Part shown: in pieces, positions 12,254 through 15,453 of the stretch
Layout of the letters: every line of letters begins with the position of its first letter
Numbering within the stretch: position 1 is the stretch's first letter
Origin: an uncultured Oligoflexia bacterium
GTDB lineage: Bacteria; Bdellovibrionota; Bacteriovoracia; Bacteriovoracales; Bacteriovoracaceae
Direction: 5' to 3'
Length of the DNA: 64,000 nt
NCBI GenBank assembly: GCA_913058265.1
Contig: CAJXPQ010000015.1
Location: 1-64,000 of the forward strand
The notes under the pieces: generated by a model
The model's input: the letters and a program-made list of their open reading frames with translations, nothing else
Database searches by the model: none
Told to the model about the DNA's origin: nothing
Position numbers and translations under genes: made by a program

Positions 12254-14818
12254 TTAGAAAGTATCTCTGAGTGCTTCATATGATGGAGCACTGGATTTAT
12301 CCGTTGTCGTTAAAGTTCCATTCGTTTTTTCATTTAATTGTCTAACTAAGTCCTGAAGGTTATTTCCGTCAAAGGAATCTTTCACATACTTATAGAACAT
12401 CATAAACCTTGCATCTAATTCGTTCTCAGTATGTCTAAATTTAAAAGATCCGTCTGGCCTTTTAAGAATTGTTATTTGATATGGGGAAGCCTGACTCTGG
12501 TCCTCTTCACCTTTACTAAAAAATAAATTAATAGCTTTTGAATTATTTGAATCTAAGAACACTTTGATCTTGTCCGCATTATCAGGGTTTAAATCAATTG
12601 TTCCATTTGTCATCTCACTTTCAGAAAGCTCAACTTCACCTGGCCTAATTAACGCTCTACCTGAACTAGCACCAGCGCCACCAGCAATTGATCTACTAGC
12701 ACCTGCACCTCTAGCACCTGAGCTCGAAGCAACCTTAGCTATAGCAGCTCCCGCCTTAGGGAAGGCATTAGCTCCTTCAGCATTTTTTCTGGCCATAACA
12801 GCTTCAGATGCCGCCATAGTTCCTAATGCCTCTTCATATGATCGACTATACTCAGAGTCAGCAGAGGCTGTATTCGATGTAGGTGTTTCAATAGAAGTCA
12901 CCCCGTTACTTGCAACGTAAGTAGAGGGAGTATCAAAAAATGGATCAACTTGAGGATTAAATGTCGGAGCATCTGGCGACTTTGCAATAAAGCCACGCTT
13001 CTTAGCAGGACCTGGACGTCTTAGAACATCGCTTAAATTTTCTTGAAACTGACTTGATGTTTGTGAGCTTTTCGCTCTTGTAATTCTTCTCGCTACTTCA
13101 CTGAAAACATTATTTGTATTCTCTTGAACTTGAGCGTTGAAACTTTTTCTTACGCTCATCTGCCCTGAGGAATCAGCGCTATCGCTGTTTGAATCATAGT
13201 AACTACTAATTCGTCCTGAGCCTGTTGTATCTCCACTCATAACAACTTCTGTAGAGTCACCTGTTAGGGGAGCTCGCGATTCAAACGGGGCTTCACTAAT
13301 ATTACTTGTCGTTGCAGTATCGCTTAACTCAAGACCCTGAAAGGCTTGAATAATAACTGGCTTTTTTGTGTAGGGATCAAATATCTCTTCCATTTTAATT
13401 GCGGCCTTACCTGCGGCCACCTTTGCAATAAATTGCTCTTGATATTCTGGTGTGCTTTCATCAATTCCAGCTGTCTTTAGCTCATCTATAACTTCTTTTT
13501 CGATATTTGAAATTAAGTTATTAACTTGTGGTTGAAGGAGTGCTTTTGCTGCTTCTCCGTAGATACATTTTTTTGATAGTTGATCTTCATTACATGCTTC
13601 TCTGACATTTTTTAGTACATCGAGTGGTTTGTCTTTGTTGAAGAATTCACAGACTAGGTTTTCAGATTCGATGATTGCATCATTATAATTTTTATCTGCA
13701 ACAGCCTCAAAACTTTCTTGATTTTTCATTTGAGGGGGCAATATCTCTTGTAGTTTATTAAAGTGCGTGTCAAAGTCATTAGAGCTTTCACTGTCGGTAC
13801 ATTTTTTATTAAGAATCATACTAGAGGCTAGGTAATCAGTTACGGAGTCCTCTTCCTGCGCGCTTGACAGTATCGTTCTTAAAGTCGTTGGATCAGATGG
13901 AATTAATTGATCAGAATTAGAACATAGAATATTTTCCATTTCAGTATGTAGGGTGTCACATCGTTTTGTAATATCGTCTCTAATTGCTTCATCAACATTG
14001 CTTGATGTAAACTCAGCAGTAACTAGATCAAGTAAATTTGGAGAGTTTTTATTAGATTTTAAAGTTTCAAAAAATTCTTGATTATTATCAAAGTTCTTGT
14101 ATACAGGGTTTGATCTTAGTTCAGCAGTGATATAGCTTAAATTATCGTTATCATTTTTTTGAAACTTTGAAATCGTCTCAGCCATTGTTGCCGAACTTGA
14201 GAGAGCCTCAAGGAAACTTGCGTCTTGAAAGAGAGCTAGACTCATATTCCTAGTAGCAACAGATTTTAATTTGTTAGTGAACGAATCGGGAATATCAACT
14301 CCACAATCATTTTTATTTTCAGTTCTATCAACTAGGGTGCCTGTTATATCAGGATTGTCATAGCGAGCTTCAATTTCATTATAAAAACTATCATGTAGTT
14401 TCGATGTATATCTTCTCAGTTCGGCTTGAGTTAAGATACTATCACTGTTCGGACAATTCATATTCTTGATTTTTTTAATACTACATAAATTTCCAAGCTC
14501 TCTGTCATTGGCTAAACTATCTATCTCACTAACTACAACGAGATCATTTGCAATAGATAGTAATCCCATATTGGCTTTATCAGACAGTGCATCTAAGAAC
14601 ATTTTTTTTCTTTTTGAGTCAATTATATCAATTGTCGGATTGAATTTTTCAATTTCACTACTTGCGCAGTTACAGGTTAAAAACTCTGGGACTTTAGTAC
14701 AATTATTTGGAGTTAATCCTTTTAGTGTCTCAGTAAGTTCGTTTGTGAGATCACTAAAGTTACAAGCGAATGCTTGAGTGGAAACTATAGAGAATATAAA
14801 GAGAAGTATTTTCTTTAT
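12254..14818 (-). CDS. Large secreted Cys-rich protein with apparent AUA start
   Basis: No family is recognised. The frame extends upstream of the first ATG (14602) through a perfect signal peptide, KKILLFIFSIVSTQAFA then CN, whose first codon at 14818-14816 is ATA. GGAGGA lies just before it and the codon overlaps the upstream stop as ATAA. An in-frame TAA lies nine codons upstream and no ATG, GTG or TTG falls between it and the signal peptide. The protein has 854 residues from here. The first half is rich in cysteines. An Ala/Gly/Ser low-complexity stretch (around GARGAGASRSIAGGAGASSG) precedes a cysteine-free C-terminal domain. It is coupled to the CXXCH gene upstream. Confidence 0.78.
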   Translation of the reverse strand: MKKILLFIFSIVSTQAFACNFSDLTNELTETLKGLTPNNCTKVPEFLTCNCASSEIEKFNPTIDIIDSKRKKMFLDALSDKANMGLLSIANDLVVVSEIDSLANDRELGNLCSIKKIKNMNCPNSDSILTQAELRRYTSKLHDSFYNEIEARYDNPDITGTLVDRTENKNDCGVDIPDSFTNKLKSVATRNMSLALFQDASFLEALSSSATMAETISKFQKNDNDNLSYITAELRSNPVYKNFDNNQEFFETLKSNKNSPNLLDLVTAEFTSSNVDEAIRDDITKRCDTLHTEMENILCSNSDQLIPSDPTTLRTILSSAQEEDSVTDYLASSMILNKKCTDSESSNDFDTHFNKLQEILPPQMKNQESFEAVADKNYNDAIIESENLVCEFFNKDKPLDVLKNVREACNEDQLSKKCIYGEAAKALLQPQVNNLISNIEKEVIDELKTAGIDESTPEYQEQFIAKVAAGKAAIKMEEIFDPYTKKPVIIQAFQGLELSDTATTSNISEAPFESRAPLTGDSTEVVMSGDTTGSGRISSYYDSNSDSADSSGQMSVRKSFNAQVQENTNNVFSEVARRITRAKSSQTSSQFQENLSDVLRRPGPAKKRGFIAKSPDAPTFNPQVDPFFDTPSTYVASNGVTSIETPTSNTASADSEYSRSYEEALGTMAASEAVMARKNAEGANAFPKAGAAIAKVASSSGARGAGASRSIAGGAGASSGRALIRPGEVELSESEMTNGTIDLNPDNADKIKVFLDSNNSKAINLFFSKGEEDQSQASPYQITILKRPDGSFKFRHTENELDARFMMFYKYVKDSFDGNNLQDLVRQLNEKTNGTLTTTDKSSAPSYEALRDTF

Positions 14819-15453
14819 ACTAAGTCCTCCGCATTTTTTGCATTAAAATAATCAACAAGCATGCTTCTTAAATTTGTAATATCTGAGAGGACAAATTTCT
14901 TTTTTGAATCCGGGTCAGCAATAATATCATCTAAATAGTCTAGAACTGTCTCAGGCTCTCCGTTAACGTACTCGATTGCATTGACATCAGTATTAGGACT
15001 ATTTAACAAAAACTTATAGAAAACATGGTTGTGAAGACTAAGTGCAATCGCTCTCTTCATTAAGTGCTCTGTTTCGCGAGTTGCAGAGTCAACTTTACCC
15101 TCACAGATAAAATCATTCTTATTGGCGTTCCAAAAACTGATTATCTTTTCTTGGTATTTTGGTGTATCTCTTGTGATTTTCATATAACCAAGTATTTGAT
15201 CTTCCATTACTTTAACAATATCTTGGCCTCTTTCTCCAGCAGTCATCATATCTATGCATAAATCTTTCGCAAACTCTCTTACTTTTGGATCACCAGTGAG
15301 GTTCGAAAGCTTAGCAACTTCATCTAGAGCAGTATTGCCAGGAAGTCCTTGAAGGCTGTTATGGCATTCTTTACAGTCGTCATGCAGATTCGCTTCTTTG
15401 GCGAAGACAGTTAGACTTAGAGAAAAAAGTAGTACTATCAGTACACTTTTCAT
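14815..15453 (-). CDS. Secreted protein with one CXXCH motif
   Basis: This 212-residue protein has a signal peptide, MKSVLIVLLFSLSLTVFA, then DDCKECHNS soon after. CKECH is the haem c attachment motif, but only one is present and no clear distal Met region was found, so haem binding is uncertain. The C-terminal third (NSPNTDVNAIEYVNGE and LDYLDDI) is faintly ankyrin-like. AAAGGA precedes the ATG. Its stop overlaps the AUA start of the 854-residue gene, so they form a two-gene operon of exported proteins. Confidence 0.65.
   Translation of the reverse strand: MKSVLIVLLFSLSLTVFAKEANLHDDCKECHNSLQGLPGNTALDEVAKLSNLTGDPKVREFAKDLCIDMMTAGERGQDIVKVMEDQILGYMKITRDTPKYQEKIISFWNANKNDFICEGKVDSATRETEHLMKRAIALSLHNHVFYKFLLNSPNTDVNAIEYVNGEPETVLDYLDDIIADPDSKKKFVLSDITNLRSMLVDYFNAKNAEDLV

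Follow-up and report, generated by a model that had tools for sequence, protein, structure and literature searches.

Apparent AUA start codon in a stop/start overlap ahead of a secreted-protein gene in a Bdellovibrionota family

Two-gene module at the locus

The window, which is the whole stretch of DNA analyzed (64,000 nucleotides), is from an uncultured marine Oligoflexia bacterium (contig CAJXPQ010000015.1 of assembly GCA_913058265.1; the genome is denoted G000). On its minus strand, a gene for a large secreted protein and its upstream neighbor (Table 1) make up a two-gene module of secreted proteins that is conserved across one Bdellovibrionota family (Halobacteriovoraceae-like). At every readable junction of this module, a secreted protein lies directly downstream, with a length of about 800 to 900 amino acids where complete. 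Neither protein has a match in Pfam or NCBIfam. A cell-envelope or secreted role for the pair is suggested by the signal peptides and cysteines.

The family profile of the upstream protein matches 20-odd genomes. The first-pass annotation had named its gene after a CXXCH motif; the first cysteine of this motif alone is invariant, and the motif is absent from most relatives and from the gammaproteobacterial homologs, so the protein is not regarded as a conserved cytochrome. Its structure model has a pLDDT of 80 with no solved (PDB) relative found by Foldseek, and an ankyrin-like reading based on the C-terminal sequence was dropped on these grounds. Stand-alone homologs of the upstream protein, lacking the large partner, are found in gammaproteobacteria and Flavobacteriia (L080 5001-5546, L077, L082, and L084), including one in NOR5-3 with 59% identity over residues 46 to 208 and tandem copies in Rheinheimera. 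These stand-alone homologs likely result from horizontal transfer.

The reading frame of the large protein is open from ATA over 854 codons, with no stop or frameshift. The predicted signal peptide read from ATA is (M)KKILLFIFSIVSTQAFA, followed after the cleavage site by CNF, with the initiator residue presumably being fMet. A direct search with the 854-amino-acid protein brought up no convincing relative, either among 129 genomes of the family or among GTDB contigs; its relatives were reached via the upstream gene. The large proteins of the modules are placed in one family because nine cysteines are invariant across the eight aligned homologs and because the two halves of the family, compared profile to profile, match with a probability of 98.9% over the first ~320 residues. 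The structure model of the large protein was too poor for use (pLDDT of 44).

Table 1. Coordinates of the features of the locus and of other genes in G000 with putative AUA starts
Feature	Position	Strand	Basis or remark
Upstream gene, 212-aa exported protein, mostly helical	14815..15453	-	ORF; family profile
Shine-Dalgarno (SD) sequence GGAGGA	14825..14830	-	Sequence; ~7 nt ahead of ATA
Putative AUA start codon	14816..14818	-	Inside stop/start overlap ATAA 14818-14815; same ATAA in G021
Signal peptide IKKILLFIFSIVSTQAFA	14765..14818	-	Translation; same position as in all homologs; cleavage site predicted
Large secreted Cys-rich protein, 854 aa	12254..14818, including stop 12256-12254	-	Uninterrupted frame; invariant cysteines
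First canonical in-frame start, ATG, codon 73	14600..14602	-	Rejected as main start
infC (IF3), ATA start	G000 C3:166332-166402, L256	+	After GGAGGT
cpaC-type secretin (PF00263) after cpaB (PF16976)	G000 C6:27962, L185	-	ATAA; ATA the only start before signal-peptide core
Outer-membrane-type protein after LolA-like gene (PF17131)	G000 C1:51101, L215	-	ATA in ATAA overlap
Sensor histidine kinase, apparent ATA start	G000 C10:8577	-	SD-like sequence upstream; no upstream overlap

Start site and its state in relatives

The minus strand reads GCGGAGGACTTAGTATAAAGAAAATA and, around the junction of the two genes, GCGGAGGACTTAGTATAAAGAAAATACTTCTC. The upstream gene ends in GAC TTA GTA TAA, its stop being TAA 14817-14815, which gives the ATAA junction, and the downstream gene is read in the -1 register as GGA GGA CTT AGT ATA AAG AAA ATA. 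An in-frame TAA lies nine codons 5' of the ATA, and the codons between them (TGC AAA AAA TGC GGA GGA CTT AGT) include no start codon; no ATG, GTG, or TTG in frame with the large protein occurs before ATG 14602. The duplex of GGAGGA with the anti-SD sequence has a free energy of -9.5 kcal/mol, corresponding to a strong SD at normal spacing. A local hairpin over the start was no better than those of shuffled sequences (z of -0.84). The geometry given in the first-pass annotation (GGAGGA at 14830-14825, ATA at 14818-14816, and an ATAA overlap with the upstream TAA) is exact, and its claim of an in-frame signal peptide with no ATG, GTG, or TTG ahead of it is borne out by the translation. ATAA is common at this register, being found in 50 of 133 NTAA junctions in the -1 register, so the codon match alone says little. 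The signal lies in the combination: ATA with no alternative start, a strong and normally spaced SD, and a signal peptide that starts there.

Counting that of the window, 20 modules could be read, and their junctions are ATGA in 13, ATAA in 2, GTGA, TTGA, and TGATG in 1 each, and non-overlapping in 2, which start with ATG or TTG. In 17 modules, stop and start thus form a four-base overlap in the -1 register, and in 18 the start is canonical. The two ATAA junctions are those of the window and of G021, which belongs to another genus, although G021 has a weaker SD (-4.9 kcal/mol), and its actual start could be ATT, the codon just before the ATA. Congeners of both genomes have canonical junctions, ATGA in G001 (for G000) and TTGA in G074 (for G021). 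In a cpaC-based tree, G000 and G021 belong to separate clades, both of which are set apart by a branch with 100/98 support, and two separate changes to ATAA are needed. The ancestral state of the junction was probably ATGA, and the AUAA overlap for secreted proteins probably arose twice at this one junction. An alignment of the junction in relatives had been proposed as a check on the AUA reading, and it returned the recurrence in G021 against a majority of ATGA. The first-pass annotation had also offered, as an alternative, that ATGA was changed to ATAA by a point mutation; with ATGA being the common state, this is probably the correct history, but not as a strain accident or an assembly error, as the change looks fixed and functional.

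AUA starts elsewhere in the genome

The strongest single point for AUA as a working start codon, as judged from gene sequences, is infC. Its start is ATA after GGAGGT in all four members of the genus; elsewhere in the family, it is ATC in G021 and ATT or ATC in most other relatives examined. Two changes to the decoding machinery were considered and rejected: an altered initiator tRNA, since the initiator tRNA is standard, and reassignment of AUA to Met, since internal ATA codons align with Ile.

A census of ATA starts covered 2.06 Mb of G000 (64% of the genome), with genes called by codon composition. The four-base junctions without another canonical start nearby were 53 ATGA, 11 GTGA, 6 TTGA, 8 ATAA, 2 TTAA, 2 CTAA, and 1 GTAA. 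A signal peptide follows three of the eight ATAA junctions and none of the other NTAA junctions, the three cases being the window gene, the cpaC-type secretin, and the outer-membrane-type protein. Orthologs of cpaC have ATGA (G003) or GTGA (G018) at the same place, and in G001, too, no start other than ATA precedes the signal-peptide core. The ortholog in G143 C226 (L210) has CTG where relatives start with GTG, possibly representing a CTG start. Orthologs of the outer-membrane-type protein start with ATG in most relatives examined, and G023 has ATAA without a recognizable SD. In addition, a redoxin-domain lipoprotein of G000 has an apparent ATA start with the SD TAAGGA and no upstream overlap.

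In a blind test of N-terminal extensions without canonical starts, ATA was found at SD spacing 9 times versus 2.1 times expected from internal control sites (P = 2.5e-4), with only about four of the nine hits being convincing as starts by eye.

Other unusual starts were observed in the same genome. A second sensor histidine kinase (C1:255491, minus strand) has an apparent ATC start with an SD-like sequence upstream. A RelA/SpoT-type gene (C2:43049, plus strand) has an apparent ATT start with the SD AAGGAG just past the upstream TAG stop, and its first canonical start falls inside the HD domain. A solute-binding-type protein (C17:18115-18964, plus strand, L100) has a signal peptide and GGGAG, and neither a canonical nor an ATN codon where its start would be expected.

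Interpretation of the AUA initiation

AUA is hardly ever used as a bacterial start codon. Translation of the 854-amino-acid exported protein nevertheless very probably starts at AUA 14818-14816, by genuine, low-efficiency, IF3-sensitive initiation. A start at this AUA had been the central proposal of the first-pass annotation, and it is supported by the recurrence of ATAA in another genus, by the additional ATA-start genes in the genome, and by the genus-wide ATA of infC. Because relatives and other genes of the genome, including infC, start at ATA, the start appears to reflect a lineage habit rather than a sequencing error.

An error that hides a G at 14816 and an ordinary ATGA junction is thus very improbable. 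ATGA is the majority state and a single base decides; however, the same ATAA stands in G021, ATA starts occur in several unrelated genes of G000, and infC has ATA in four species. Moreover, the assembly comprises 25 contigs at 99.6% completeness, and the 854 codons otherwise form an intact frame. It is also quite unlikely that the AUA is real but a recent down-mutation that cripples the gene and leads to its loss in this strain. In the two other congeners, G002 and G003, the module is missing or was not detected, and the AUA yield in Staphylococcus aureus is about a tenth to a third (PMC13009471), as this reading would have it; however, no stop or frameshift has accumulated, the cysteines are conserved, the signal peptide is intact, the same change persists in another genus, and the core-type genes infC and cpaC use ATA.

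Two further readings do without the AUA altogether. Gene callers would annotate ATG 14602, the first canonical start, which would leave the stretch upstream of it untranslated and the product cytoplasmic. Such a product would lack the signal peptide found in all homologs as well as Cys19, Cys40, and Cys49, which all lie upstream of this ATG and are invariant in all eight aligned homologs, making this start highly implausible. Equally, a -1 frameshift close to the upstream stop would fuse both proteins and need no start codon, and the downstream frame is indeed -1 relative to the upstream gene. The fusion is nonetheless most unlikely because GAG GAC TTA GTA TAA contains no slippery heptamer and because relatives have separate starts, with a canonical codon there in 18 of 20 modules; the signal peptide would also be buried in the fusion.

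For initiation at AUA 14818-14816, ordinary fMet-tRNA would suffice. The AUA would be placed in the P site either by a ribosome that has just terminated upstream translation at the overlapping UAA or by a new 30S subunit bound through GGAGGA, and IF3 would only partly reject the C.A mismatch at the third position. The AUA would be tolerated owing to the strong SD and the terminating ribosomes delivered to the site. In evolutionary terms, one G-to-A transition in AUGA would convert AUG to AUA and UGA to UAA at once, such that the upstream stop would survive the change and the downstream gene would be turned down, not off. The conserved overlap makes coupling to the upstream gene plausible. Coupling would not be required for AUA starts in G000, since infC, the lipoprotein, and the sensor kinase appear to start at ATA with no upstream gene overlapping them. 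By analogy with other bacteria, expression of the secreted protein is probably reduced and IF3-sensitive. In S. aureus, yields of roughly 10 to 30% of the AUG level have been measured for natural AUA starts with extended SD motifs (PMC13009471), and in Escherichia coli, excess IF3 represses noncanonical starts as well as reinitiation, with a smaller effect in the presence of an SD (PMC2268962).

Starts at AUA, infC genes with AUN starts, and AUGA overlaps are all known individually. E. coli infC starts with AUU and is autoregulated by IF3. The infC genes of the family, which start with ATT, ATC, or ATA, resemble it in having an AUN start of the kind discriminated by IF3, whereas the window gene encodes a secreted protein that is not known to act in translation. 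The four-base AUGA stop/start overlap serves termination-reinitiation coupling. The window junction has the same geometry and frame relation, and AUGA is the state in most relatives, but it combines an AUA start with a UAA stop instead of AUG with UGA. Natural AUA starts have been described for infC, ccpN, and citZ of S. aureus (PMC13009471). Like these genes, the window gene has AUA for AUG, a strong SD, and no canonical alternative, and infC has AUA both in S. aureus and in the genus of the window. The window gene differs from them in its AUAA stop overlap, its signal peptide, and its unrelated gram-negative lineage, and its AUA start is a prediction from sequence. An AUAA overlap for secreted proteins, occurring twice at one junction and in other genes, was not found in the open-access literature searched, and earlier reports are possible.

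More tentatively, the lineage may discriminate less strictly among start codons, or it may possess a set of AUA-start genes tuned by IF3 (infC and those for the secretin, the outer-membrane-type protein, and the secreted protein) whose output would rise as IF3 falls; AUAA may then be a recurrent, evolvable stop/start switch, one base from AUGA. Gene callers limited to ATG, GTG, and TTG starts do not see AUA starts. In this family, they would overlook the signal peptides of several exported proteins and assign those proteins to the wrong cell compartment. The AUAA overlap, if confirmed, illustrates how a single transition can convert the stop UGA to UAA and throttle the next gene at the same time, and the AUA-start genes would provide a natural test set for the start-codon stringency of IF3 outside E. 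coli and Staphylococcus.
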